This document shows, one piece after another, positions 14,368 through 52,855 of a DNA stretch of 64,000 nucleotides (position 1 is the stretch's first letter; each line of letters begins with the position of its first letter). The position numbers and the translations under genes are program-made. The notes beneath the pieces were generated by a model that saw only the letters and a list, made by a program, of their open reading frames with translations, did not search any database and was not told the DNA's origin. The stretch is from Pseudobacter ginsenosidimutans (GTDB lineage: Bacteria; Bacteroidota; Bacteroidia; Chitinophagales; Chitinophagaceae): the NCBI RefSeq assembly GCF_007970185.1, contig NZ_CP042431.1, positions 3,782,001 through 3,846,000 on the forward strand, written 5' to 3'.

Positions 14368-15345
14368 CTACATCTCTACGGCAACCTTTGCAAATTTGTT
14401 CCTGTATTCGATTGGCGTCAGTCCTGTAACTTTCCTGAAAGTATCCCGGAAAGTTTTGGTATCAGTATATCCCACGTCAAGCATTACTTCGCTTACATTT
14501 TTCCGTGAAGCTTCAAAGGACCTCTTGGCAGCTTCCATACGCACTCTTTGGATGTATTCCAGAGGAGTGTTGTTGGTTGCCTGACGGAACCTGCGTTCGA
14601 AGGTGCGGCGGCCGGAATTGACGATGGCAGCCAATTCATCGATCGTGATCTTGTCGTTGTAGTTTTTCTCGATGTACTCCTGCACCTTCATGATCTCATC
14701 GTCCGCATGTTTTTTCTGTCCTTTGAATATGGTGAATGGGGCCTGACTGTTGCGGCCAATATCCAGTGCGAAGTTTTTCGAGATCAATATAGCCGTTTCA
14801 CGGTCGGAGAACTTTTCAATCAGGTATAAGATCAGATTCCAAAGGCTGCTGGCGCCACCGCTGCTGTAAATATTTCCCACCTCAGTGATAATGGCGCCAT
14901 CCACCACGTCTATTTGTGGGTATCGTACTTTGAACTCATCGAGGTAAGCCCAGTGGGTGGAACATTTTTTTCCGTTTAACAGTCCGGTTTCCGCCAGGAG
15001 GAAGGCGCCTAAACACAAACTGGCGATACTGCAGCCATTCCTGTACAGTTTTTGGATGTAAGGAATAACATCACTATTGATCTTTATTCCATCCTCAATA
15101 TCGCCGTAAACAGGCGGTATGATCAACAGGTCGGTTTTATTCACATCGCTGATCAGGCGATCAGTTTTGATCGTGTATTCACCGTCGTTTGCCGAAACCA
15201 GGTTGGTAAGGCCCGCGTATTCCACTTCAAAAATGGGCTTTTTGCCCAGCGCTCCAAGAAAGTCATTGGCTGCCTTGAATGCGCGGTACGGCGGTGTTAC
15301 CGCTTCTATTACGCCTTTCTCAGGGGCAAAAACTGTTACCTGCAT
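14368..15345 (-). CDS. GlxA-family transcriptional regulator (DJ-1/PfpI domain plus AraC HTH)
   Basis: Residues 1-185 form a DJ-1/PfpI-like amidotransferase fold (VTVFAPEKGVIEAVTPPYRA, SLCLGAFLLAETGLLNGK with the nucleophile-elbow-type Cys, then CSTHW). Residues about 215-325 are an AraC/XylS double helix-turn-helix (ITIDELAAIVNSGRRTFERR, VSEVMLDVGYTDTKTFRDTF, GLTPIEYRNKF). Such proteins act as transcription factors that sense small molecules with the DJ-1-like domain. It is divergent from a VOC/glyoxalase-fold gene with 136 bp between the starts, so it probably controls that gene and the ones after it (inference). Confidence 0.92.
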   Translation of the reverse strand: MQVTVFAPEKGVIEAVTPPYRAFKAANDFLGALGKKPIFEVEYAGLTNLVSANDGEYTIKTDRLISDVNKTDLLIIPPVYGDIEDGIKINSDVIPYIQKLYRNGCSIASLCLGAFLLAETGLLNGKKCSTHWAYLDEFKVRYPQIDVVDGAIITEVGNIYSSGGASSLWNLILYLIEKFSDRETAILISKNFALDIGRNSQAPFTIFKGQKKHADDEIMKVQEYIEKNYNDKITIDELAAIVNSGRRTFERRFRQATNNTPLEYIQRVRMEAAKRSFEASRKNVSEVMLDVGYTDTKTFRDTFRKVTGLTPIEYRNKFAKVAVEM

Positions 15346-41512: not shown

Positions 41513-41533
41513 CGTTGGGATGATGGTTTTTTA

Positions 41534-41684
41534 GGGCCCGGGGGTATGTGTAATCCGGCTGGGAAACGAACCGGCGCGGGAGGATATATGTTGGGCAATA
41601 GTGGGTTGGATTGGGCTGTGGTAATTCTGTTGGGCTGTTTCGCTTACGTTTCCGGGGCCGGAATTACACATACCCTCCGGGCCC
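41534..41684 (+). repeat. Covarying hairpin repeat, copy 1
   Basis: 151 bp. Left arm GGGCCCGG, GGGTATGTGTAA, CCGGC, GGAAACG pairs in the same order with the right arm (CGTTTCC, GCCGG, TTACACATACCC, CCGGGCCC at 41677-41684), a stem of over 30 bp. The loop strand is C-poor and G-rich (runs at GCGGGAGG, GTTGGGC, GTGGGTTGG, TTGGGC) and holds the shared blocks GCGGGAGGAT, GTAATTCTGTTGGGC and TTCGCTTA. It starts 21 bp after the SpoU methyltransferase stop, G-rich strand sense. It is likely a structured transcript end or ssDNA hairpin, not a gene. Confidence 0.75.
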
Positions 41685-41951
41685 CGCACGATGCTGGTGC
41701 AGCAGTGGACCGATATGCAATGGGGATGATTGAATGGATTCAGCCTCTATATTCCTGCCTTTCTCTTTTTCTTCTTTCTTATATCAACTCTGCAGCTACT
41801 CTATCAGCACTTTTCTGATGCCGTTGTAGTGCCAATTGATTGCTACATCGGCGCTATTGGTTTGCCTTTCAAGTTTAATGTTGCGCAGATGCGGCTTCTT
41901 TCTATGCTGGATTTTGGCTGCTGGTACCAGGGCAATTGTTGTTGCACATTC
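41685..41951. other. Unassigned DNA between two inverted repeat elements
   Basis: 267 bp enclosed by copies 1 and 2 of the hairpin repeat in opposite orientation. It contains no credible gene, RNA or terminator. A minus-strand frame (41796-42032) translates into protein-like sequence with a stop, which may be decayed coding DNA, but I cannot name it. Confidence 0.4.
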
Positions 41952-42113
41952 GGGGAAGTGAGTCGAAGTGATATGAAAAGCCGTCCTTGCGAAATGTAAG
42001 CGAAGCAGTACAATAATATTCCACAGCCCCATCTATCCCCACAAAAGTCCATCAAATATCCTCCCGTGCTGGTTCATTTCCCAGCCGGCGTTCATATCCT
42101 TCGACGAACCCCC
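41952..42113 (-). repeat. Covarying hairpin repeat, copy 2 (inverted)
   Basis: 162 bp on the minus strand. Outer arms GTCGAAGGATATGAA and TTCATATCACTTCGAC pair with small bulges, then GCCGGC/GCCGTC and GGAAATG/CATTTC. The arm sequence is unlike that of copy 1. The loop again reads GCACGGGAGGATAT then a G-rich stretch, a diverged form of the GTAATTCTGTT block and TTCGCTTACATTT. It lies 13 bp after the stop of the minus-strand LolC/E-type permease, G-rich strand sense to it. Copies 1 and 2 therefore each follow the stop codon of one of two convergent genes. Confidence 0.75.
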
Positions 42114-42126
42114 AGTAAAGAAAGAG

Positions 42127-43356
42127 TTACCTGAATTGTATCGCCCGTACCGGCTGAATCATCTTTACAATAATGGTGGGGATCAGCAGCACCAGGAAGC
42201 AGATCAGGAAGGTGCCGGCATTGACGAGCGCTACCTGCCACCACACGATAAATACTTCGATCTTCGAAATGTAGTAGGCGTCTTCAGGAAGGCTCACCAG
42301 TCCGTAATGCTGCTGCAGCCAGCAAACTGCCAGACCGATCAGGTTGCCGAAGAAGAGGCCGGTAAAGATGATCACCGCACCATGGAAGAGGAAGATCTTC
42401 TGGATGGTCCAGTTGCTGGCGCCAAGCGCTTTGAGCAATCCAACCATGCGGATGCGCTCCATCACCAGGATGAGGAGGCAGGTGATGAGATTGAGCGTTG
42501 CTATCACGATCATGATGATGATCACGATCATGATGGTCTTGTTCTGCAGGCCCAGCCAGTCGAAGATATTGGGGAAGATATTCTTGATAGTATTGCCACG
42601 CATGCCCATGGGAAGGTCGGGGATGATGGCTTCGTTCACCTCATCCATCTGGTTGAGGTTGTTCAGGATGAGCTCGTATCCGCCGATCTGTTCGGGCTGC
42701 CAGTTGTTGAGGCGCTGGAGCAGACGGAGGTCACCGATGGCGATGAGCTTGTCGTATTCCTCGATGCCGGTTTTGTAGATGCCCGTTACCGTTAGTTTGC
42801 GGGTGCGCGGCGGGGCGCCCTGCTGGATGAAGTAAACGAGGAGGGCATCATTCACTTTCAGGTTGAGCCGGTTGGCGATATGCTGCGAGAGATTGATCTC
42901 GTTGCTGTAGCCACTATCGGGAAAATTGATCCAGCGGCCTTCTATGAGGAATCCCTTGAGATTGGAGAAATCATAATCCTTTTCCACGCCTTTGATGAGA
43001 ACGCCTTCGATGGTCTCCTCGGATTTAAGGATGGCATTGCGGGTGGCGAATGCCTGAACGGATTTGATCTGAGGATGCAGTTTGGGAAGATTGGTGACGG
43101 AGTCATTCTTGCGGATGGGGATCTCTTCTGCAATGGTGACACGCGAGCCACCCCAGCTCTGGATGCGGATATGTCCCCAGAAACTGAAAACTTTCTGGCT
43201 GATGGTTTCCTTGAATCCATTGGTGAAGGCCATGGTGAGGATCATCACGGCCACGCTGATGATAGTGGCGCCTATGGATAAGCGGATCACGAACCTGGAG
43301 AATGATTTTTGCGTGTTGAAAGCGATCCGTTTGGCAATATAGGCGGCGATATTCAA
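42127..43356 (-). CDS. FtsX-like ABC transporter permease (LolC/LolE type)
   Basis: A 409-residue protein with an N-terminal membrane helix (RLSIGATIISVAVMILTMAF), a periplasmic MacB/LolE core domain of about 230 residues, and three C-terminal helices typical of FtsX (TIMIVIIIMIVIATLNLITC, FLFHGAVIIFTGLFFGNLIG, FLICFLVLLIPTIIVKMIQP). The sequence ANRLNLKVNDALLVYFIQQG and EYDKLIAIGDLRLLQRL fits lipoprotein-releasing permeases. It would act with an ATPase encoded elsewhere to pass lipoproteins to the periplasmic carrier; the ATPase is not in the window. Confidence 0.88.
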   Translation of the reverse strand: MNIAAYIAKRIAFNTQKSFSRFVIRLSIGATIISVAVMILTMAFTNGFKETISQKVFSFWGHIRIQSWGGSRVTIAEEIPIRKNDSVTNLPKLHPQIKSVQAFATRNAILKSEETIEGVLIKGVEKDYDFSNLKGFLIEGRWINFPDSGYSNEINLSQHIANRLNLKVNDALLVYFIQQGAPPRTRKLTVTGIYKTGIEEYDKLIAIGDLRLLQRLNNWQPEQIGGYELILNNLNQMDEVNEAIIPDLPMGMRGNTIKNIFPNIFDWLGLQNKTIMIVIIIMIVIATLNLITCLLILVMERIRMVGLLKALGASNWTIQKIFLFHGAVIIFTGLFFGNLIGLAVCWLQQHYGLVSLPEDAYYISKIEVFIVWWQVALVNAGTFLICFLVLLIPTIIVKMIQPVRAIQFR

Positions 43357-43473
43357 GATGGGTATGTTTATTGCGCCTCAAAAATAGCCGCTGGCTTCAA
43401 ATACTGCCAAAGTTTTTTCTTTATTTATGTTATAATTGTGCACAGTACATTTACGAAGTAAACAGATCAACCG

Positions 43474-44772
43474 ATGAAAACCTTGTACCTGCTTTGTTTG
43501 ATGGCGATCTCAGGAGTGTCGATGGCACAGATCCCGGACGCAGTTTATGCGCCCAATATCAAGTCTGTTCAGCTGTTCCGCAGTGGGGATCAGCTCAGTT
43601 ATCCCGTTATCCGCCTCAACAGCAGTGAAAAACTGGAACTGCATTTCGACGAGATCGGCGGAGGCGTGAAACCATATTCCTACACTTTCCAGCTCTGCAA
43701 TGCAGACTGGACGCCGGCTTTGTTGAGTCAGTTCGATTATATGCGTGGCTTCATGCAGCAGCGTATCAATACCTATCGCACGTCCAGCATCGCTTTCACC
43801 AGGTATACGCATTACCAGGCCTCGCTGCCGGACCAGAACTGTTTTCCCACCCGATCCGGCAATTATATCCTCCGTGTTTTTCTGAATGCTGATACCAGTA
43901 AGACCGTTTTCACCAAAAGATTCCTGGTGGTGGATGAAAAAGCCAGCGTTCCCGTACAGATCCAGCAGCCATTCAACGGACAATTCTTCCGCACAGGTCA
44001 GAAAGTGCAGTTCAAAGTGCAGCTCAGCGATGCGCTCAGGGTGAGCAACCACCTGCAGCAGGTGCGTGTGGCTATTCTTCAGAATTACCGATGGGACAAT
44101 GCCCATATCGATCTCAAGCCTACTTTCTTCTCCCGCAATACACTTGAATACAATACAGAGAACGATGCCATCTTTCCGGCAGGAAAGGAGTGGAGATGGG
44201 TGGATATTCGCAGTATCCGCTTTCTCAGCGCACAGATCGCCAGTGTGAAGAACAAGCCCACCAGCACCGATATCTTCATGCATCCTGATACAGACAGAAG
44301 CGGACAACGATTCAATTTCTTCAGGGATGCCAATGGCATGTATACCATCGAAACCACGGAAAGCATCAACCCGCTCTGGCAAACTGATTACGCTACTGTC
44401 TTCTTTTCGTATGTGCCAAAGGGTAATATTCCTTTCCCGGATAAAGACATTTATCTTTTTGGTCAGTTGACAGGTTACAATCTCAACGATTCAGCCAAAA
44501 TGGTTTGGAACGAAGGAAAAGGTGCGTATGAAACAAGCCTGTTTTTGAAGCAGGGTTATTATGATTATTGTTATGTGACCATCGATAAGAATGATCCCAA
44601 ACGCCAGGCCAGCTTCGAGTTCACGGAAGGTAATTTCTGGGAGAGCGAAAATGAATACATGATCCTGGTTTATTACCGGCCGATCGGTGGCAGGGCCGAT
44701 GAATTGATATCGGTAGGAAGAGTGAATTCATATACGGGAAGGCAGGGGATCATGAGAGGGCAGAGTTATTAG
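43474..44772 (+). CDS. Type IX secretion system plug protein (DUF5103)
   Basis: A 432-residue protein with signal peptide MKTLYLLCLMAISGVSMAQ, then an N-terminal beta-sandwich domain typical of DUF5103 (SVQLFRSGDQLSYPVIRLNS, YSYTFQLCNADWTPALLSQF, YMRGFMQQRINTYRTSS), followed by an Ig-like/CBM48-like region (YATVFFSYVPKGNIPFPDKD, DIYLFGQLTGYNLNDSAKMV). DUF5103 proteins were seen to plug the SprA translocon of the type IX secretion system. Its presence suggests the organism secretes proteins by T9SS or glides. No other T9SS gene is in the window. Confidence 0.85.
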   Translation: MKTLYLLCLMAISGVSMAQIPDAVYAPNIKSVQLFRSGDQLSYPVIRLNSSEKLELHFDEIGGGVKPYSYTFQLCNADWTPALLSQFDYMRGFMQQRINTYRTSSIAFTRYTHYQASLPDQNCFPTRSGNYILRVFLNADTSKTVFTKRFLVVDEKASVPVQIQQPFNGQFFRTGQKVQFKVQLSDALRVSNHLQQVRVAILQNYRWDNAHIDLKPTFFSRNTLEYNTENDAIFPAGKEWRWVDIRSIRFLSAQIASVKNKPTSTDIFMHPDTDRSGQRFNFFRDANGMYTIETTESINPLWQTDYATVFFSYVPKGNIPFPDKDIYLFGQLTGYNLNDSAKMVWNEGKGAYETSLFLKQGYYDYCYVTIDKNDPKRQASFEFTEGNFWESENEYMILVYYRPIGGRADELISVGRVNSYTGRQGIMRGQSY

Positions 44773-44873
44773 AAGCCTGATGGAGTAAAGGATCTGGCGG
44801 ATGCAGCTAATTATGCGGAGAATGATTTTCAATATTTTGAGCCATTTGATTTTCAAATGAATTCATTTCTCCT

Positions 44874-44881
44874 TATCTTTG
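44874..44881 (+). promoter_or_regulatory. -7 promoter box of the SRP RNA gene
   Basis: TATCTTTG matches TAnnTTTG exactly; the SRP RNA 5' end at about 44886 lies 5 bp downstream, as expected. TTTC at 44851 sits at the -33 position with the same 19-bp spacing as the tsaC promoter, one base off TTTG. Confidence 0.6.
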
Positions 44882-44885
44882 CGGC

Positions 44886-44981
44886 CGGCAGGTCTTACAC
44901 GACCAGCTCCTGCAGACTCCCCCAGGGCCGGAAGGCAGCAAGGGTACGCGGTTGTAGCGGTGCGATGTAAGTAATCTGCCG
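44886..44981 (+). ncRNA. ffs: Signal recognition particle RNA (small bacterial type)
   Basis: The conserved SRP apical core CAGGGCCGGAAGGCAGCAAG is present at 44923-44942. The ends CGGCAG (44886) and CTGCCG (44976) pair and are followed by a T-run that serves as terminator. It is about 96 nt, a small form like the bacterial 4.5S RNA. It binds Ffh for co-translational targeting. A TAnnTTTG box sits just upstream. Confidence 0.95.
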
Positions 44982-45040
44982 ATTTTTTTTCTATTTTTCC
45001 TCTCCATTATACTCCGTACCACTTATCTAAATTTTTTGTT

Positions 45041-45718
45041 ATGAAATTCTTCATTGATACAGCCAATATTGCACAGATCAGGGAAGCCCATGATCTCGGT
45101 ATTCTCGATGGTGTAACCACCAATCCTTCGCTGATGGCTAAAGAAGGCATTCGCGGAGAAGAAGCCATCAATAAACATTATCTCGATATCTGCGAGCTCG
45201 TGGATGGCGGTGATGTGAGCGCTGAAGTGATTTCAACCGATCTCGCCGGTATGATCGAAGAAGGTAAAAAACTCGCAGCTATCCATCCGAACATCGTGGT
45301 GAAGATCCCCATGACCAAAGATGGTGTGAAAGCACTCAAATATTTTTCCGACAACGGAATCAAAACCAACTGTACACTCGTATTCTCCGCCGGTCAGGCT
45401 ATCCTGGCTGCGAAAGCTGGCGCCAACTACGTTTCTCCTTTCATCGGTCGTATCGATGACAGCAACTGGGACGGCGTACAACTCATCGAGCAGATCGCTC
45501 ATATCTACAGCCTGCAGGGCTTCAAGACTGAGATCCTGGCAGCAAGTATCCGCAGCCCGCTTCACATTGTGAAATGCGCTGAAGTAGGAGCCGATGTTTG
45601 CACCAGCCCGCTGGATGCCATCCTGGGTCTGCTGAAACACCCGCTGACTGATATCGGTCTCGCGAAATTTGTAGAAGACGCGAAGAAAATGCAGGAACAG
45701 AAAGCTCCGGTAAAATAA
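45041..45718 (+). CDS. tal: Transaldolase (small TalC/MipB-type)
   Basis: A 225-residue TIM barrel opening MKFFIDTANIAQIREAHDLG with LDGVTTNPSLMAKEG, the Schiff-base Lys88 in NIVVKIPMTKDG, and GANYVSPFIGRIDD. Two positions separate transaldolase from fructose-6-phosphate aldolase in this subfamily: SAEV (Glu62, where the aldolase has Gln) and SPF (Phe134, where it has Tyr). Both fit transaldolase. The name 'fructose-6-phosphate aldolase' often given to such proteins is therefore less likely. It works in the non-oxidative pentose phosphate pathway. A good terminator follows. Confidence 0.9.
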   Translation: MKFFIDTANIAQIREAHDLGILDGVTTNPSLMAKEGIRGEEAINKHYLDICELVDGGDVSAEVISTDLAGMIEEGKKLAAIHPNIVVKIPMTKDGVKALKYFSDNGIKTNCTLVFSAGQAILAAKAGANYVSPFIGRIDDSNWDGVQLIEQIAHIYSLQGFKTEILAASIRSPLHIVKCAEVGADVCTSPLDAILGLLKHPLTDIGLAKFVEDAKKMQEQKAPVK

Positions 45719-45772
45719 ATTCAACCCTCGCCAGGTATTTGGAGTGAAATACACCTTGTGCCTGGCAGGTGG

Positions 45773-45811
45773 AAAGGCAAAGCGGAAATGATTTCGCTTT
45801 GCCTTTTTTTT
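45773..45811 (+). terminator. Intrinsic terminator of the transaldolase gene
   Basis: AAAGGCAAAGCG and CGCTTTGCCTTT form a strong stem, extended by GAAA/TTTC with one bulge, followed by seven T residues. Copy 3 of the hairpin repeat begins 33 bp later. Confidence 0.85.
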
Positions 45812-45843
45812 ATGCGATCATCTTTTAGAGTATTGGGGCGTTC

Positions 45844-45988
45844 GGCAAAGGTTATGAACCGACGGCTGTAAAACATACCCGGCGCGGGAGAATGTTGGAT
45901 GAGCGTTGGTGGGTTGGATGGGGCAGAGGTAATGCTGTTGGGCTTCTTCGCTTATGTTTTGAAGGCCGTCTTGTCATAAACCTTTGCC
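45844..45988 (+). repeat. Covarying hairpin repeat, copy 3
   Basis: 145 bp. Left arm GGCAAAGGTTATGA, GACGGC, AAAACAT pairs with right arm ATGTTTT, GCCGTC, TCATAAACCTTTGCC. This arm sequence is unrelated to copies 1 and 2, but the loop keeps GGCGCGGGAGAATG, GTAATGCTGTTGGGC, TTCGCTTATG and G-runs. It lies between two convergent genes, 3' of tal in the sense direction. Confidence 0.75.
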
Positions 45989-46013
45989 TCACTGGCTGGT
46001 GTTGCAGCAGCTT

Positions 46014-46448
46014 TTATCCGCGCTTCCTCTTCCTGGCGGGCTGCCTGCCTGAAGGTTGCATCACTTCTTCCATCGATTTCAATACCTCGTCATCGGGTAA
46101 TTTCTTGATGTAGATGGTGATGCTTTCGCGCAAAGATGTGTCTGCTTTCAGGATCGCTTTTACTACTACACTGTCTGCGTTGAACGTTGAATCGAAATAC
46201 AAATTGCAGCCGTCGAATTTACCTCCTGATGTGGTGAAGCTGATGTCTTCGGCAGACAATGGTTGCCATCTTCCATTGCTCATTTTTCCATCTACGTTGA
46301 TGTAATTGTACACACCGCCTTTCTTCAGGCTGTCTGTATACAAATGGAAAGCGATACTGTCCACTTTTACTTTTTCCTTTTCCTTTTGGGCGAAAAGGGG
46401 AGAAGTAGAAAACGAAACAAGCGCTATGGCAACTAAGATTCTTATCAT
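46014..46448 (-). CDS. Small secreted protein of unknown function
   Basis: ATG 46448 gives a signal peptide MIRILVAIALVSFSTSPLFA followed by QKEKEKVKVDSIAFHLYTDS. The mature 125 residues look like a beta-sandwich (YNYINVDGKMSNGRWQPLSA, GKFDGCNLYFDSTFNADSVV) and end in a basic tail (GRQPARKRKRG). I do not recognise the family. The frame runs 25 codons further upstream but without a sensible start. It is divergent from the AraC-MGMT gene. Confidence 0.7.
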   Translation of the reverse strand: MIRILVAIALVSFSTSPLFAQKEKEKVKVDSIAFHLYTDSLKKGGVYNYINVDGKMSNGRWQPLSAEDISFTTSGGKFDGCNLYFDSTFNADSVVVKAILKADTSLRESITIYIKKLPDDEVLKSMEEVMQPSGRQPARKRKRG

Positions 46449-46576
46449 ATCAGGCGTCAAGTTAATGAAAATGCGGCTTATGGTGCTCAGACGGTTTCCG
46501 CAAGAAGCGGGTTGCTTCAACAACGCTATTGTGGGAGTTTTGTGATAGTATCGTTCACAACAAAAAACTGTAGCGT

Positions 46577-47470
46577 ATGTTATTTGAAAAGAGAGAACTT
46601 TACCGTTCCTTGACAGCAGAACAACATCAATACAATACTATCGCCAGGGCCATCGAGTACCTGTATGCCAACTTCAAAGACCAGCCTGACCTGGAAGAAG
46701 TGGCCGCGCAGGTGCATGTGAGCCCCTTTCATTTCCAGCGCATGTTCACGGATTGGGCGGGCATCAGTCCCAAACGTTTCATGCAATACCTGACGGCCGA
46801 TTTTCTCAAAGAGAAACTGAGGGATTTTTCCAGTATAGCCGATGCTGCCGATGCCGCAGGGCTCAGCAGCCAGAGCCGTGTGTACGATCTGTTTGTAACG
46901 CTGGAAGCCGTTACACCACAGGAGTTCAGGGAAAAAGGAGAGGGCATCGTCATCGATTATGGTTTCCATTCAACACCATTTGGCGAAGTGATCATCGGCG
47001 CCACGCCGCGCGGCATCTGCTACCTGCATTTTCTGGCGGATGCAGATCATGAAAAAGCCATTCAGCAATTGCAGTTGAGTTGGGAGAAAGCCGTGCTGCA
47101 ACACAATCCGCAAAAGACAGCCCTTTTGACTGAAATGGTTTTCGATCCTTCCAAAAGAAAGGAAAAACTGAACGTGCTGGTGAAAGGAACCAATTTCCAG
47201 GTAAAGGTTTGGAATGCACTCTTAAAAATTCCTTCCGGATCGCTGACCACTTACCAGGATGTGGCCAGGGAGATCGGGAACCCGCGTGCACTGCAGGCCG
47301 TAGGATCCGCTGTAGGAGCCAATCCAGTTGCTTTTCTCATCCCCTGTCACCGGGTGATCCGTAAGAACCTGGTGCTGGCCGACTATATGTGGGGACCGGA
47401 ACGCAAGAAAGCCATCCTCGGATGGGAGCTTAGTCGCGATATTATTGTACCGGAAACCGGTATTTTATAG
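46577..47470 (+). CDS. AraC-type HTH fused to O6-methylguanine-DNA methyltransferase (Ada-like, no N-Ada domain)
   Basis: The 297-residue protein has an AraC double HTH (LEEVAAQVHVSPFHFQRMFT, GLSSQSRVYDLFVTLEAVTP) at residues 38-118 and an MGMT domain (residues 130-290) with ALLKIPSGSLTTYQDVAREI and the active site FLIPCHRVIRKN (acceptor Cys257). E. coli Ada also has an N-terminal methylphosphotriester domain with a Zn-bound Cys; here it is absent, so this form cannot be switched on by phosphotriester methylation. It probably repairs O6-alkylguanine; any regulatory role is unclear. Confidence 0.92.
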   Translation: MLFEKRELYRSLTAEQHQYNTIARAIEYLYANFKDQPDLEEVAAQVHVSPFHFQRMFTDWAGISPKRFMQYLTADFLKEKLRDFSSIADAADAAGLSSQSRVYDLFVTLEAVTPQEFREKGEGIVIDYGFHSTPFGEVIIGATPRGICYLHFLADADHEKAIQQLQLSWEKAVLQHNPQKTALLTEMVFDPSKRKEKLNVLVKGTNFQVKVWNALLKIPSGSLTTYQDVAREIGNPRALQAVGSAVGANPVAFLIPCHRVIRKNLVLADYMWGPERKKAILGWELSRDIIVPETGIL

Positions 47471-47618
47471 CGTTTCCGGCTCTTTTTATCCCCACGAACT
47501 GCACAAGTGAAGTAATGGTGCATAAGAATCTATTGAATTTGGAGGACGGTAACAAAGCAAAACCTATTTTGTACCTCAAAGCTGTTATATTTGCTGTCCT
47601 TTAAAAAAATAGACAAAA

Positions 47619-50600
47619 GTGCGATTAAAGAGTTTAGAAATTAAGGGCTTTAAAAGTTTCGCGGATAAGACCGTGCTGAACTTCGACACTGGTATCACCG
47701 GCGTTATCGGCCCCAATGGATGTGGCAAGAGTAATATCATTGACTCCATCCGTTGGGTGATCGGTGAACAGAAGATCAGTCATCTCCGCTCTGAAAACCT
47801 CGAAAGCCTGGTTTTCAATGGCTCCAAAACCCGCTCCGCCAGTGGCCTCGCGGAAGTTAGCCTTACCTTCGAGAACACCAAGAATCTCCTGCCCACAGAA
47901 TTCAATACGGTTACCGTAACGCGTAAATTCTACAAAAGCGGGGAGTCCGAGTATCGTCTCAATGATGTGCAATGCCGCCTCAAGGATATCCAGAACCTCT
48001 TCATGGATACCGGGGTGAGCACAGACTCCTATGCCATCATCGAACTGGGTATGGTGGACGAGATCATCAAAGACAAAGAGAACAGCCGCCGCCGCATGCT
48101 GGAACAGGCCGCTGGTATCACTATCTATAAAACACGTAAGAAAGAAGCCAAACAAAAGCTGGACGCCACCGAACAGGATCTTGCCCGTATCGAAGACCTG
48201 CTGTTCGAGATCAACAACCAGTTGAAAATGCTCGAGAACCAGGCCAAGAAAGCGGAGAAATTCTATGAGATCAAGAAGGAATACCGCGAGTACTCCATCG
48301 AACTGGCCAAAGCTTCACTGGAAGGTTTCAATCTCACTTACCGCGATCTGAATACTCAATCTGAAACCGAAACAGATAAAAAGATCCGCCTTGAAGCCAT
48401 CATCGCCAACGAAGAAGCAGGCATCGAAGCAGAAAAAGTAGGTTTCATCGAAAAAGAACGCGCCCTGCAAAGCATGCAGCATGAGTTCAACGACCTCCTG
48501 CAATTACTGCGCACCAAGGAAAACGATAAGAACCTCGCTTCTCAAAAACTGAACTTCCTCAAGGAACGCGAAAACAGTCTCCAGGAATTCCTCAACAAAT
48601 CTGAAGGAACACTCAAAGGACTGGAAGAAAGCATCGAATTCACCAAGCTCCAGATCGGAGAGGAAGAAGGAAAACTGGAAGGCCTCGAACAACAGCTCGA
48701 AGACCTGAAAGCCTCATCAGAAGAGAAACGTGGCATCTTCGATACAAAGCGTGTGCATGTAGACAGTCTCCGCAGCGAGAACCTGGCCATGCAGCGCAAC
48801 CAGTTTGAAGCCGAGAAAAAAGTGGCCGTTGCCGATACTTCTATTCAAAACCTTCAATCCAGCATCTCGCAGATTGAAGAAGAGAAAGAAGTTCGTCGCA
48901 GCCAGCTCAAGCAGCTCGAAGAAGAAATGATGACGCGTGAGCAGGAGCTCGAAAGCCGCAAGCGCGATCTGCAACAACTCCAGGAGCAACATGAGCGCAC
49001 CAAGGAGCAGATCCTTCAGTCGCAGTCCGAAATGGAAATCCTTCGTCAGCAACTGGCCGAAGAGAACCGTAAACTGGATGCCAAACGCAACGAATACGAC
49101 CTGCTGAAGAGTCTTATCGACTCCATGGAAGGTTATCCCGAGAGCGTAAAATTCCTGCACAACAATCCTAACTGGAACCATACAGCGCCCATTCTTTCCG
49201 ATATCATTTATGTAAAAGAGGAATTCCGCGCAGCTGTGGAGAACGTGCTGGAGCCTTACCTCAACTACTATGTGGTGAACAACCTCCAGGAAGGTATGCA
49301 GGCCGTTCACCTGTTGGATAATAACAAAAAAGGGAAAGCGAACTTCTTCCTGCTGGACAAGCTCACTAACGCCGATGCTTCTGCGCACAGCGCACCCGCC
49401 GATACCATTCCTGCCATGCAGGTGATTGAGGTGGATGAGCAGTACCGTCAACTGGCAGAACACCTGCTGGGCAATGTGTTCATCGCGGAGAATGAGAGCG
49501 CCCTGGAAAATTCCAATGGCTCAGTGGTGCTGGAAAAGACCGGTAAATATGTAAAAGGGAAATTCTCCCTCACCGGAGGCAGTGTAGGAGTATTCGAAGG
49601 AAAGAAGATCGGCCGCGCCAAGAACCTCGAGAAATTATTCGAAGAGATCCAGGTGCAGGAGAAGATCGTTGCAGACCTGAAAATGGCGATCCAGGCCAAG
49701 CACAATGAAGTGATCGGCTACAATGAACAATTGAAGGAAACCGCCATCAAACAGGCGCAGGAAGATATCAACCGTCTTACCAACCAGGTATTCTCGCTCC
49801 AGAACAAGATCGAGAGCCTGCACGGTTTGCAAAGCTCCTCCCAGAACAGGATGGAAGACCTGCAGATGAACCTGCAGAACACTTCCGCTTCCATCGAAGG
49901 CACACGCCAGGAATGGATGAAACTGGTAGACACACTGAATGAGATCCGCGAAACCCTGCGCGTAGCGGAAGAAGAATACAAATATGCTGAAAGCCAGTAC
50001 CAGCAGGCAACTGCATCGTACAACGAGTTCAACCTGCAGGTAACGCGACAGCATAGCCGAATCAACCAGCTGAAACAGGAATCAGAGTTCAAAGGCAATC
50101 AGCTCCGCGACCTCAAGACACAGATCGAAAGCAACAACGCACAACTGAAAATGACCGTTGAGAGCCTCACGGAAAACGAAGAAGTGCTTGCCAATGCTGA
50201 GAATGGACTGGTAGACATGATGCGCCGCAAGGAAGAAGAAGAAAAGAAACTGAACGAAGCCGACCAGGCCTTCTATAATATGCGCAACGCGCTCAATGAA
50301 AAGGAATCCGAACTGCGGGCCAAAGTGAAAGAGCGTGAGCAACTGGATCATCTCCTCACCGAGATCAAAGACAAGCTCACTGAACTGAAGCTCCAGCTGG
50401 CCGGTATGAAGGAAAGGCTCAACGTGGAATTTCGCATCGACCTCGATGAGATCATCGATCAGCCAAGGACCAACGATATACCCACTGAAGAGCTCCAGGA
50501 AAAATGCGATCGCATGAAGAAACGCCTGGAGAATCTCGGGGAAGTGAATCCCACAGCCATCGAAGCCTTCATGGAAATGAAGAAACGTTATGAGTTCATC

Positions 50601-51140
50601 CTCGAACAGAAGAACGACCTCGTAACGGCCAAGGACAGCCTGATGCAGACCATCCAGGAAGTGGAAGCCACTGCCAACCAGCAGTTCCTCGACACATTCA
50701 ACCAGGTACGCGAGAACTTCCAGAAAGTGTTCAAGGCCCTCTTCACGGAAGATGATACCGCTGACATGATCCTGGAGAATCCTGAGAACCTGGCCGAGAC
50801 AGGTATCGATATCGTCGCGAAGCCAAAAGGTAAACGCCCTTCATCCATCACGCAATTGAGTGGTGGAGAGAAGACCCTTACGGCCACCGCGCTGCTCTTC
50901 GCCATCTACCTGATCAAACCGGCTCCTTTCTGTATCCTGGATGAGGTGGACGCGCCGCTGGATGATGCCAACGTTGGCAAGTTCACGCAGATGATCCGCA
51001 AGTTCAGTGAAGAAAGCCAGTTCATCATTGTAACGCACAACAAAATGACCATGAGCGCCGTAGACGTGATCTATGGCGTTACCATGCAGGAACCTGGTGT
51101 AAGCAAACTGGTACCCGTGGATTTCCGCGGACTCAACTAA
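47619..51140 (+). CDS. smc: Chromosome segregation protein SMC
   Basis: A 1173-residue SMC protein. Walker A GPNGCGKSN at residues 32-40, long coiled coils, a hinge at about 500-670 (ESVKFLHNNPNWNHTAPILS at its start, then IQVIEVDEQYR-like sequences), second coiled coil, then the ABC signature QLSGGEKTLTATALLFAIYL and Walker B FCILDEVDAPLDDAN. The start is a GTG (MRLKSLEIKGFKSFADKT), the natural SMC N-terminus. SMC dimers with ScpA/ScpB extrude DNA loops and help chromosomes segregate; neither scp gene is here. A terminator follows 32 bp after the stop. Confidence 0.97.
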   Translation: MRLKSLEIKGFKSFADKTVLNFDTGITGVIGPNGCGKSNIIDSIRWVIGEQKISHLRSENLESLVFNGSKTRSASGLAEVSLTFENTKNLLPTEFNTVTVTRKFYKSGESEYRLNDVQCRLKDIQNLFMDTGVSTDSYAIIELGMVDEIIKDKENSRRRMLEQAAGITIYKTRKKEAKQKLDATEQDLARIEDLLFEINNQLKMLENQAKKAEKFYEIKKEYREYSIELAKASLEGFNLTYRDLNTQSETETDKKIRLEAIIANEEAGIEAEKVGFIEKERALQSMQHEFNDLLQLLRTKENDKNLASQKLNFLKERENSLQEFLNKSEGTLKGLEESIEFTKLQIGEEEGKLEGLEQQLEDLKASSEEKRGIFDTKRVHVDSLRSENLAMQRNQFEAEKKVAVADTSIQNLQSSISQIEEEKEVRRSQLKQLEEEMMTREQELESRKRDLQQLQEQHERTKEQILQSQSEMEILRQQLAEENRKLDAKRNEYDLLKSLIDSMEGYPESVKFLHNNPNWNHTAPILSDIIYVKEEFRAAVENVLEPYLNYYVVNNLQEGMQAVHLLDNNKKGKANFFLLDKLTNADASAHSAPADTIPAMQVIEVDEQYRQLAEHLLGNVFIAENESALENSNGSVVLEKTGKYVKGKFSLTGGSVGVFEGKKIGRAKNLEKLFEEIQVQEKIVADLKMAIQAKHNEVIGYNEQLKETAIKQAQEDINRLTNQVFSLQNKIESLHGLQSSSQNRMEDLQMNLQNTSASIEGTRQEWMKLVDTLNEIRETLRVAEEEYKYAESQYQQATASYNEFNLQVTRQHSRINQLKQESEFKGNQLRDLKTQIESNNAQLKMTVESLTENEEVLANAENGLVDMMRRKEEEEKKLNEADQAFYNMRNALNEKESELRAKVKEREQLDHLLTEIKDKLTELKLQLAGMKERLNVEFRIDLDEIIDQPRTNDIPTEELQEKCDRMKKRLENLGEVNPTAIEAFMEMKKRYEFILEQKNDLVTAKDSLMQTIQEVEATANQQFLDTFNQVRENFQKVFKALFTEDDTADMILENPENLAETGIDIVAKPKGKRPSSITQLSGGEKTLTATALLFAIYLIKPAPFCILDEVDAPLDDANVGKFTQMIRKFSEESQFIIVTHNKMTMSAVDVIYGVTMQEPGVSKLVPVDFRGLN

Positions 51141-51171
51141 GTTACTAACGTTCACATATAGATGAATATAT

Positions 51172-51196
51172 AAAGCCCGTGCTTGCACGGGCTTTT
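51172..51196 (+). terminator. Intrinsic terminator of smc
   Basis: AAAGCCCGTGC and GCACGGGCTTT form a perfect stem with a two-base loop and a T tail. Confidence 0.88.
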
Positions 51197-51219
51197 ACGT
51201 GAACTTCTCAACAACATAT

Positions 51220-51549
51220 ATGAAGACCATTCTCTTACTGGTAGCGTCCAATATTTTCATGACCATCGCCTGGTATGGACATCTCAAGAACCAGAATATC
51301 CCGATGTGGAAGGCTATCCTCGTGGCCTGGGGCATTGCCTTCTTCGAGTATTGTCTGATGGTGCCTGCCAACAGGCTGGGCTATGGCAACGGATTCAACG
51401 GTTTCCAGCTGAAGATGACCCAGGAAGTGATCACCCTCGTTGTGTTCACGGTGTTTGCAGTATTCTATCTGAAAGAACCATTTCACTGGAAGTACCTGGT
51501 GAGCTTTGTGCTGTTGCTGGGAGCGGTATATTTTGCTTTCAAGAAATAA
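51220..51549 (+). CDS. DUF486/DMT-type small membrane protein
   Basis: ATG 51220 (MKTILLLVASNIFMTIAWYG) is preferred over a GTG 21 bp upstream that lies at the edge of the smc terminator. The 109-residue protein has four membrane segments with the pattern AWYGHLK, AILVAWGIAFFEYCLMVPAN, MTQEVITLVVFTVFAVFYLK and YLVSFVLLLGAVYFAFKK. The AWYGHL and FFEYCLMVPANR motifs mark the DUF486 branch of the DMT superfamily. Function unknown. Confidence 0.88.
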   Translation: MKTILLLVASNIFMTIAWYGHLKNQNIPMWKAILVAWGIAFFEYCLMVPANRLGYGNGFNGFQLKMTQEVITLVVFTVFAVFYLKEPFHWKYLVSFVLLLGAVYFAFKK

Positions 51550-51583
51550 ACAGCGTGTGCACGGTGGCTAGCCAGAGGTGAGC

Positions 51584-51617
51584 AAAAAAAAGTCACTCGC
51601 CGGGGAGGCGAGCGACT
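51584..51617 (-). terminator. Intrinsic terminator of the YCF48-like gene
   Basis: On the minus strand AGTCGCTCGCC and GGCGAGTGACT pair with one mismatch and run into an eight-T tail. It sits 19 bp after the stop of the gene on that strand. Confidence 0.85.
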
Positions 51618-51636
51618 GCCAGCACTTCGAATATTT

Positions 51637-52623
51637 TTAATACACTAATTTTGCAATCTTCCCATCTCCTGCCAGAATCACCGTCCTGCCTGCTTTTGAG
51701 CGTTTCACCACATTGTAGCTTTCTTTGGAGATGAGTGTCCAGTGCATGCCGAGGTCATTGGAAACATCCACACCACTTGTGCCACAGCAGATGAGTTGTC
51801 CGCCTGTGATGAATTCCACACCGCTCCTGTAACCATGTGGCGGTACAGCCGGCTTACGGAATGCTGCAGGCTGACTGAGTTTGAAGAGCACACAGTTACC
51901 TTCAGTGGAAGTATCGGAAGTATAATTGCCACCTACCACGGCTGCCTGGTCTTTGTAAACAGCCAGGGAATAAGCGCCGGTGGTCTCTTTCCCTTTTACC
52001 ATTGGCAGCTCGATGGCATTATCGGGTGTGAGTATGCGCGAAACCATTCCTCCTGAAACAGCTGTGAATTTATTCTTTGCATGATAAATGATATTGGTGC
52101 CGCTGGCTGCGAAGAATGCTTCGCCCTTGCCGGCTTTGATAGGGGAGCCGCGGTATTTGTCCCATGAGTTGCCGCCATCTTTGGTAGTGAGCAGGTATAC
52201 TTCATCGTTGATGGGATCTCCGATCACGATGCCATTCTTTGCATCTGCAAAGTCCATTGCGTCCATGAACACGCCTTTGGTGGTATCGGTGAATACGTTG
52301 TTCCATGTTTTGCCACCATCTGTTGTTTTGAGGATATTACCCGGCTCTGCGATAGCGATCACTATAGCAGTATTGGCGTCAAATGCTTCAATGTCGCGGA
52401 ACTCACGTTTTTCAAATCCCGGTACTATGTTCCATTCCCAGGTTTTGCCGCCATCGGTAGACCGGCCAACGGTGCCACCGCTGCCGCTGGTCCAGATCAG
52501 GTTATCGTTAAGCACACAAAGCCCGCGCAGGCTGGATTTGATGCCTGTCTTCAAAATTTCTATTTTCTGTGAATATCCTGTAAGGGAGAGTAAACATGCG
52601 ATGATGAGTAACCGAACTTGCAT
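51637..52623 (-). CDS. YCF48/BNR-repeat beta-propeller secreted protein
   Basis: A signal peptide (MQVRLLIIACLLSLTGYS) and a 328-residue beta-propeller. Repeated BNR/Asp-box-like motifs SGSGGTVGRSTDGGKTWEW, ILKTTDGGKTWNNVF, LLTTKDGGNSWDKY and SNDLGMHWTLISK match the YCF48-like (photosystem II assembly factor-like) family, which in non-photosynthetic Bacteroidota has no known role. Sialidase-type enzymes share the Asp-box but the catalytic residues of sialidase are not visible. Copy 4 of the hairpin repeat lies in its upstream region. Confidence 0.85.
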   Translation of the reverse strand: MQVRLLIIACLLSLTGYSQKIEILKTGIKSSLRGLCVLNDNLIWTSGSGGTVGRSTDGGKTWEWNIVPGFEKREFRDIEAFDANTAIVIAIAEPGNILKTTDGGKTWNNVFTDTTKGVFMDAMDFADAKNGIVIGDPINDEVYLLTTKDGGNSWDKYRGSPIKAGKGEAFFAASGTNIIYHAKNKFTAVSGGMVSRILTPDNAIELPMVKGKETTGAYSLAVYKDQAAVVGGNYTSDTSTEGNCVLFKLSQPAAFRKPAVPPHGYRSGVEFITGGQLICCGTSGVDVSNDLGMHWTLISKESYNVVKRSKAGRTVILAGDGKIAKLVY

Positions 52624-52695
52624 ATAGCAGCAGATTTAATGGCTCTAAAAGTAGTGATTATTGACCATCGCTCCATATTAGTTTGATTGCATCTG

Positions 52696-52820
52696 TAAAT
52701 GTTCCGGCATCGAAAACATAAGCGAATAACTTCAATAGAATTACCACACCTCACCCCAACCAATCTACAGCCCAACAAACATTCTCCAGCGCTGGTTTGT
52801 TTTTCAGCCGGCGTTCATAC
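52696..52820 (-). repeat. Covarying hairpin repeat, copy 4
   Basis: 125 bp on the minus strand. Inner arms GCCGGC/GCCGG and AAAACA/TGTTTT pair well; the outer arm (GTATGAAC against GTTCATT-like sequence) is weaker than in the other copies. The loop keeps CAGCGCTGGAGAATG, TTGGGCTGTAG, GTAATTCTATTG and TTCGCTTATGTTTT with G-runs. It lies about 70 bp upstream of the YCF48-like gene, G-rich strand sense to it. The 52624-52927 gap holds this repeat and a terminator, nothing else. Confidence 0.68.
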
Positions 52821-52855
52821 CGGCTTTGCGCAACCAGGCACAACAGCCAAAAAAG

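Follow-up and report, generated by a model that had tools for sequence, protein, structure and literature searches.

The 64,000-nucleotide stretch of the Pseudobacter ginsenosidimutans genome analysed in this work (assembly GCF_007970185.1, contig NZ_CP042431.1, positions 3,782,001 to 3,846,000 of the forward strand; referred to below as the window) contains four long hairpin elements, which are members of a repeat family with at least 113 copies in the 7.8 Mb genome of this organism (E below 1e-6 with the covariance model R1). In these elements the outer arms are private to each site and complementary within it, and the tip of the hairpin (the core) is common to the family. Based on sequence comparisons, we give close to an even chance to the interpretation that these elements constitute an old, REPIN-like non-coding hairpin-DNA repeat, whose arms would be kept complementary at the DNA level and whose cores would be homogenised between sites. 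The combination of private stems with shared tips is an unusual evolutionary mode for a repeat family.

In an initial annotation, made from the letters of the window alone, four intergenic hairpin elements had been reported. All four are present, all are intergenic and each of them was recovered by the covariance model. The positions of these elements and their parts within the window are as follows:

41534-41684, plus strand: hairpin element 1 (5' arm starts at 41534, 3' arm ends at 41684; covariance-model match 41533-41676)
41563-41568 and 41647-41652, plus strand: inner stem of element 1, GAAACG/CGTTTC
41697-41704, plus strand: 3' tail motif of element 1, GTGCAGCA
41685-41951, no strand: spacer separating the tail-to-tail elements 1 and 2, not among the spacers with the longest open reading frames (ORFs)
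41940-41947, minus strand: tail motif of element 2, GTGCAACA in the minus-strand reading
41952-42113, minus strand: hairpin element 2, the partner of element 1 (covariance-model match 41966-42110)
41991-41996 and 42075-42080 (plus-strand positions), minus strand: inner stem of element 2, GAAATG/CATTTC
45844-45988, plus strand: hairpin element 3, single, with no partner within 3 kb (covariance-model match 45839-45984)
45870-45876 and 45954-45960, plus strand: inner stem of element 3, AAAACAT/ATGTTTT
52696-52820, minus strand: hairpin element 4, single, its outer arms being the weakest among the first 30 copies (covariance-model match 52689-52834)

The inner complementary blocks that had been listed (viz. 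GGAAACG/CGTTTCC, GAAATG/CATTTC, AAAACAT/ATGTTTT and AAAACA/TGTTTT) are all found in the window. The outer arms described for each copy are likewise real, but in element 4 they are the weakest of 30 (-18.6 kcal/mol). A G-rich loop conserved in all four copies had also been described; a shared core does exist, but the corresponding block in element 4 is GCTGGAGAAT and the loop is thus not identical in all of them. A fifth match of TTCGCTTACATTT in the window, at 14488, is by eye not an element.

The four copies noted at first are only a small part of the family, and both the pairing of copies and the tail motif GTGCANCA had been missed. The model R1 was built from the first 30 copies and gives 116 matches at E up to 1 among 150 candidates scored, and the count of 113 may be a lower bound. 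In the six genomes of the genus (designated G000 to G005, G000 being that of the window), R1 matches at E up to 1e-6 are present in four (113, 103 in G004, 107 and 18, with 150 candidates scored per genome), and none were found in G003 or G005. Most copies in genome G001 belong to a sister family whose core is of another type (33 matches, E up to 1). Each unit is about 150-190 bp long and consists of site-specific complementary arms and a shared apical core of ~80 nt. In a typical copy the outer arms measure some 20-32 bp, the inner bulge is asymmetric and the inner stem has 5-6 bp with the pattern AAA[CT][AG]/[CT][AG]TTT. The core contains a GG-rich stretch and the motifs GCGCGGGAGRAT and TTCGCTTA, or variants of these. 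At least about half of the copies carry the tail GTGCANCA, located ~55 nt past the CGC of TTCGC. A 34-nt scan allowing up to one mismatch detects it in 64 of 112 copies (one of the 113 was dropped from the positional profiles and tail scans), in comparison to 0-8 of 112 for control 15-nt windows outside the tail region. The exception is the control window at 115-129, with 14 copies, which coincides with another short repeat; exact matches of the tail peak in the 55-69 window (25 of 112 copies). A second short repeat, about GGATGGGGAAAAGTGCATCA and in several cases followed by AGTAAT, recurs in the spacers of L087, L089, L092, L109, L113 and L116, and it has the GTGCANCA word in common with the tails.

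The arms had been described as differing between copies while being complementary within each, and permutations and shuffles place the within-copy pairing far beyond chance. The mean energy of the arm duplex is -40.1 kcal/mol within a copy vs -20.8 kcal/mol between copies (0 of 20,000 permutations as low), and changes on both sides are seen in 19 of 26 pairs among 30 copies (0 of 500 shuffles as high). The inner 5 bp, which occur in four variants, are complementary in 30 of the first 30 copies, and over all 113 copies the Watson-Crick proportion of the two inner pairs that vary is 97-98%, with few exceptions. In the alignment of the 113 copies (A3), which was fitted to R1 and whose pairing percentages lean to the structure, the top 16 position pairs by mutual information are stem pairs, which are individually 65-98% Watson-Crick. 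In the sister family of G001, double changes are found in 22 of 24 stem pairs. Complementary changes, whose absence from the genome-wide copies would have refuted the initial annotation, are abundant, and the stems covary as those of structured RNA families do.

If the fold were selected in an RNA, then G-U pairs should be tolerated in the stems but not their mirror image, A-C. For the 22 arm and inner-stem pairs, the 113 copies contain 52 G-T and 51 A-C combinations (alignment A3), and the 17 pairs of A3 that were chosen first contain 36 G-T vs 43 A-C among 1916 cells, of which 1720 are Watson-Crick. The RNA control for this comparison is a family represented in the window by the following gene:

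44879-44985: Bacteroidales small signal recognition particle (SRP) RNA gene

In SRP RNA from the same bacterial family (28 of 30 Chitinophagaceae loci used, two dropped) there are 90 G-T vs 1 A-C of 896, although its structure was derived with RNAalifold, which favours G-U over A-C columns. New single mismatches in the arms between species comprise 20 G-T, 18 A-C and 36 others (3 of 64 ortholog pairs dropped). Between the arms of G000 and G004, 15 double changes lead from one Watson-Crick pair to another (list read by eye), and 9 of these are transversions, for which there is no wobble path. As the arms are strand-symmetric, unlike the SRP RNA, they look kept as DNA, and the sequence counts indicate, with some dissenting, that it is as DNA and not as RNA that their complementarity is maintained. 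Hence, of the earlier suggestion that selection acts on structure, the part that stands is that structure and not arm sequence is common to the copies; an RNA reading is unsupported in the arms, where G-T is no commoner than A-C.

The second part of our interpretation concerns the difference in the inheritance of arms and cores. In ortholog comparisons between the sister species G000 and G004 (54 of 64 pairs parsed and 10 dropped, the parser requiring complementary inner stems), the mean identity is 0.91/0.93 for the arms and 0.83 for the core, and between loci within a genome it is 0.58 for arms and 0.67 for cores. When all copies from both genomes compete, the arms find their best match in the ortholog in 52 of 54 cases and the cores in 26 of 54, the latter becoming 29 of 54 when only own-genome copies compete. 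In 19 of the 54 pairs the core has a 16-nt stretch in which 9 positions at most are identical to the ortholog. Allele switches in which both versions are present at other loci were seen in 1 of 54 pairs (15/16 identity) or 4 of 54 (14/16), and in 0 of 590 randomly mutated controls; as the switches exceed these controls, some of the core exchange is direct, in few copies. For 15 elements of the more distant relative G001 mapped to G000 (3 of 18 shared loci were not mapped and a few mappings are loose), core identity is 0.556 to the ortholog vs 0.557 to any other copy, and these cores are closer to other G001 cores (0.640, p=6e-5). Within a genome, the cores of neighbouring copies that form a pair are slightly more alike than others (0.72 vs 0.67 in G000, p=1e-4; 0.73 vs 0.70 in G004, p=0.02), and their arms are not more alike than those of other copies. 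The nearest copy is the partner for 6 of 66 cores, vs 0.6 expected, and for 5 of 66 arms. These comparisons indicate that the cores are homogenised within species while the arms stay put, and exchange of cores between sites is probably the simplest reading of this contrast. Ectopic gene conversion would be the simplest process for it, and lineage-wide selection by a core-binding protein is the main alternative.

According to this alternative the cores are not exchanged at all, and a co-evolving binding protein reshapes them together in each lineage. The species-specificity of the cores at shared sites and the small number of clean allele switches would fit this, but two copies in G001 (L063 and L066) have kept a core of the G000 type, the cores of pair partners are more alike than those of other copies, and the switches are above the controls; we consider this explanation unlikely.

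A number of observations weigh against one or the other part of the interpretation that the arms are kept as DNA and the cores exchanged. When all 26 model pairs are counted, there are 118 G-T vs 75 A-C. However, 62 of the 118 come from one pair in the apical helix, which places this helix outside the symmetry argument. In the pair concerned (A3 columns 54 and 144) G-T is found in 62 and A-T in 44 of the 113 copies, the T being nearly invariant, unlike the arms, and the apical helix may be under a different constraint than the arms. In G001 (alignment A2), 23 G-T vs 25 A-C of 660 become 42 vs 28 when two bulge-edge pairs are restored (24 pairs), and the pair-type covariation measure in this genome is not above shuffles (110 of 500). 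Uncompensated changes in the arms exceed compensated ones, 74 vs 15, in a comparison where choosing the pairs in G000 inflates the breaks. Further, isolated mismatches in long runs lean towards A-C, with 13 G-T vs 29 in G000 and G004 (p=0.02; the two genomes were pooled and are not independent, and 20 of 184 copies were dropped) and 3 G-T vs 14 A-C in G001 (p=0.013). These isolated-mismatch counts do not support a G-strand RNA, and they make a weak wobble preference on the C strand possible; the elements may accordingly have a single-stranded role on the C strand. The pairs preferentially adjoin the 3' ends of genes (53 of 76 pair sides), which would suit a role in mRNA. With respect to the cores, the best-match result could partly reflect fast divergence under a shared constraint and not exchange, and clean core allele switches are few (1-4 of 54). 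Lastly, the orthology of the arms between G001 and G000 is borderline (0.589 vs 0.560, p=0.053), with three of them ranking 1st or 2nd of 113.

The age of the sites was assessed from their flanks in 40 sampled loci of G004 (69 elements there) and 30 of the 33 matches in G001. The flanks are shared with a G000 element locus in 39 of 40 and 18 of 30 cases, respectively; many of the sites are older than the split of G000 and G001 and have been inherited in place. At the site of the window pair, which is empty in G003 and G005, the flanking genes are separated by ~40-55 bp in the former and by a few bp in the latter; in G001 the distance is ~250 bp, with no visible element. G002 has two elements here, and the 3' half of one of the two is missing in G004. 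Both of the G002 elements orthologous to those of the window (L250, G002:C18:11050-12000) have the same aberrant core, ACCACCGCAGTTGTGGTTTT, as after conversion between the partners. At a second site (L095) the gap is ~20-30 bp in G005, and in G003 the flanking genes are 19 kb apart, so the site is uninformative there. The terminal sequences vary by site, and the empty sites are too diverged for target duplications to be judged.

Among 59 genomes, that of the window included, only the four of the genus with R1 matches were recovered under stricter filters. A model of the sister family (R2) has matches in 4 of 195 Chitinophagaceae genomes, the new one being G179, from another genus, where the two matches (E 6.7e-10 and 0.008) look genuine by eye. 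Weak R2 matches in G007, G032 and G033 (E 0.002-4) were not counted, that in G032 being by eye a short hairpin of another kind. In a scan of species genomes with exact patterns, which may leave out the genome of the window, the matches (30 loci) were confined to Pseudoflavitalea rhizosphaerae KACC 18655 and one metagenome assembly from the Chitinophagaceae.

In G000, 76 of the 113 copies are arranged in 38 pairs less than 1 kb apart, with spacers of 113-885 bp, and in all 38 the plus-strand copy is followed by the minus-strand copy, i.e. they are tail-to-tail, forming inverted doublets as in REP/REPIN systems. The same arrangement is seen in 29 of 29 pairs of G004 (the 40 sampled loci there being 29 plus-minus, 8 minus and 3 plus) and in 9 of 9 close pairs of G001 (table read by eye). 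The remaining 37 copies are single, and within ~2 kb on either side of them one fragment of a partner was found (L156). When longest ORFs obtained by script, which are not curated gene calls, are used as genes, 53 of the 76 gene ends facing pairs are 3' ends (34 of the 53 within 30 bp or overlapping) and 23 are 5' ends; 18 pairs are located between two 3' ends, 17 in mixed settings and 3 between two 5' ends. As the pairs are plus-minus whatever the directions of the genes, their orientation belongs to the pair and not to the genes.

This invariant orientation, together with the sites that are empty in relatives, is what could be expected if each close pair marked the ends of a decayed or non-autonomous transposon, with the two elements as its long terminal inverted repeats and the spacer as its cargo. 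Three of the 38 spacers have ORFs of at least 125 aa, two of them with Pfam matches (RibD_C; YycE/glyoxalase). However, the spacers have mostly stretches of 20-50 bp in common (one of 142 bp at 75%), no transposase is present among the three spacer ORFs scanned, the outermost sequence is the least shared part of the element, and about a third of the copies are single. A conserved spacer cargo was rejected in view of the mostly short repeats and the three unrelated ORFs. The pairs L114 and L100 enclose an ordinary gene (RibD_C domain and YycE/glyoxalase, respectively). We regard transposon ends as slightly less probable still than the co-evolving protein.

With regard to known systems, no description of this hairpin family was found in searches of an open-licence library, which covers a part of the literature. 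Nor was any insertion sequence found of which the copies could be fragments, as had earlier been envisaged, and there was no match in plasmids and phages (one element as query) or in viral contigs (one exact pattern). The ERIC/IRU, RUP, NEMIS/Correia and RU elements, which are similar to miniature inverted-repeat transposable elements, are likewise palindromic, intergenic and non-coding, with lengths of roughly 100-170 bp, and their ends are conserved family-wide. The present family is set apart by ends that are private to each site, only the tip being shared. The analogy with REP/BIME elements, which had been proposed for the window, holds in so far as REP, BIME and REPIN are the nearest kind, but it fails in tag, size and RAYT association. 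In published accounts, a REP is a GTAG or CGTC tag beside a 20-40 bp palindrome, and most REPs are reported to lie between genes that converge or run in the same direction (PMC3733652), and REPINs are intergenic inverted doublets with compensatory changes (PMC3116915). The likeness to these accounts of REPINs and BIMEs (PMC3116915, PMC3733652) extends to the interspersed intergenic palindromes, about 100 in number, to their arrangement as inverted doublets around a spacer, to compensatory changes, and to placement mostly between convergent or co-directional genes. The differences are that the units here are about 150-190 bp, with site-specific arms and a shared core, that the conserved neighbour of a unit is the tail GTGCANCA and not GTAG or CGTC, that spacers reach 113-885 bp, and that no cognate RAYT gene tracks the presence of the repeats.

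The last of these points bears upon the possibility that the elements are REPs/REPINs moved by a Y1 transposase of the RAYT type, for which the hairpins in single-stranded DNA would be the substrate. The candidate gene for this role is:

G000:C1:7347186-7347515 (L163): Y1 transposase-like gene, single copy, Y1_Tnp E up to 1e-5

In favour of this possibility, the elements form inverted doublets, lie between genes and show compensatory changes, like the published REPINs (PMC3116915), and on the C strand they have a motif at a near-fixed distance 5' of the hairpin, similar to the plan of REP tag and hairpin. However, the check on RAYT genes that had been recommended gave no link: one Y1_Tnp gene is present in 6 of 6 genus genomes, including the element-free G003 and G005, always with the same neighbours, viz. 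aroF-like and aroB-like genes (named by eye). It is not flanked by the repeat, the nearest G000 copy being ~9.6 kb away, and its presence is unassociated with that of the elements, on which ground RAYT was rejected as their driver. The position of the catalytic Tyr is a Phe in 5 of 6 genomes (aligned by eye with the motif YIKNQKEHH, given in a passage of PMC6006769), and the gene looks domesticated. Further, a GTAG or CGTC tag is lacking, the units are several-fold longer than REPs, and 39 of 40 sampled sites are common to two species, so no recent movement is seen. Movement of this kind is doubtful, and less probable again than the transposon ends.

The least probable of the alternatives is, in our view, a structured RNA, i.e. 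a small RNA or an element of 3'UTRs in which compensatory changes preserve a selected fold: the very strong covariation, the 74 of 113 copies that come after the end of a same-strand ORF, the conserved apical core with its one wobble-rich pair and the weak C-strand preference are in its favour, but the arms and inner stem have no wobble excess where SRP RNA has a large one, cores track the species and not the site, pairs adjoin gene 5' ends as well (23 of 76 sides), there was no Rfam match at gathering score in the window and nothing relevant at 6 loci under lenient thresholds (E up to 5), and an alignment of 64 copies showed no positional promoter signal within the 69 nt that follow the tail. 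An intrinsic terminator would be a short GC hairpin with a T run behind it; the positional profile of the 112 copies has no T-rich stretch directly 3' of the 3' arm, although no scan for terminators was made. On present evidence the family appears to be a variant of interspersed palindromic DNA repeats and not an RNA family.

For the interpretation as hairpin DNA with homogenised cores, the following mechanism is envisaged. A mutation in one arm would be copied into the other by intrastrand template switching in a hairpin or cruciform. Template switching as a keeper of stems is described, for RNA genes, in PMC8794818; the likeness is that complementarity is kept by copying one arm from the other, and the difference is that the hairpins of that account are RNA genes, whereas those described here are dispersed repeats whose arms have symmetric wobble counts. 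The upkeep of the arms is perhaps aided by selection for the hairpin as DNA, which would fit equally well. The cores would be homogenised by ectopic gene conversion, perhaps begun by breaks at the hairpin tip made by a nuclease of the SbcCD type. As to their role for the cell, selfish or by-product persistence is the default view. A bolder proposal, which we advance as a speculation with little likelihood, about that of RAYT movement, is that the core itself is the selfish unit, spreading without the arms by hairpin-directed conversion, so that homogenisation proceeds without transposition and the private, inherited stems are re-copied from arm to arm.

Covarying stems are normally taken as strong evidence for a functional RNA. 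In the present family strong covariation is found without a wobble preference in the arms, and comparing the numbers of G-U and A-C combinations might serve more generally as a simple test for palindromes that are kept at the DNA level. The family also provides about 100 natural replicates for measuring core exchange and arm-to-arm copying, and it is a possible case of concerted evolution that halts at the hairpin arms.

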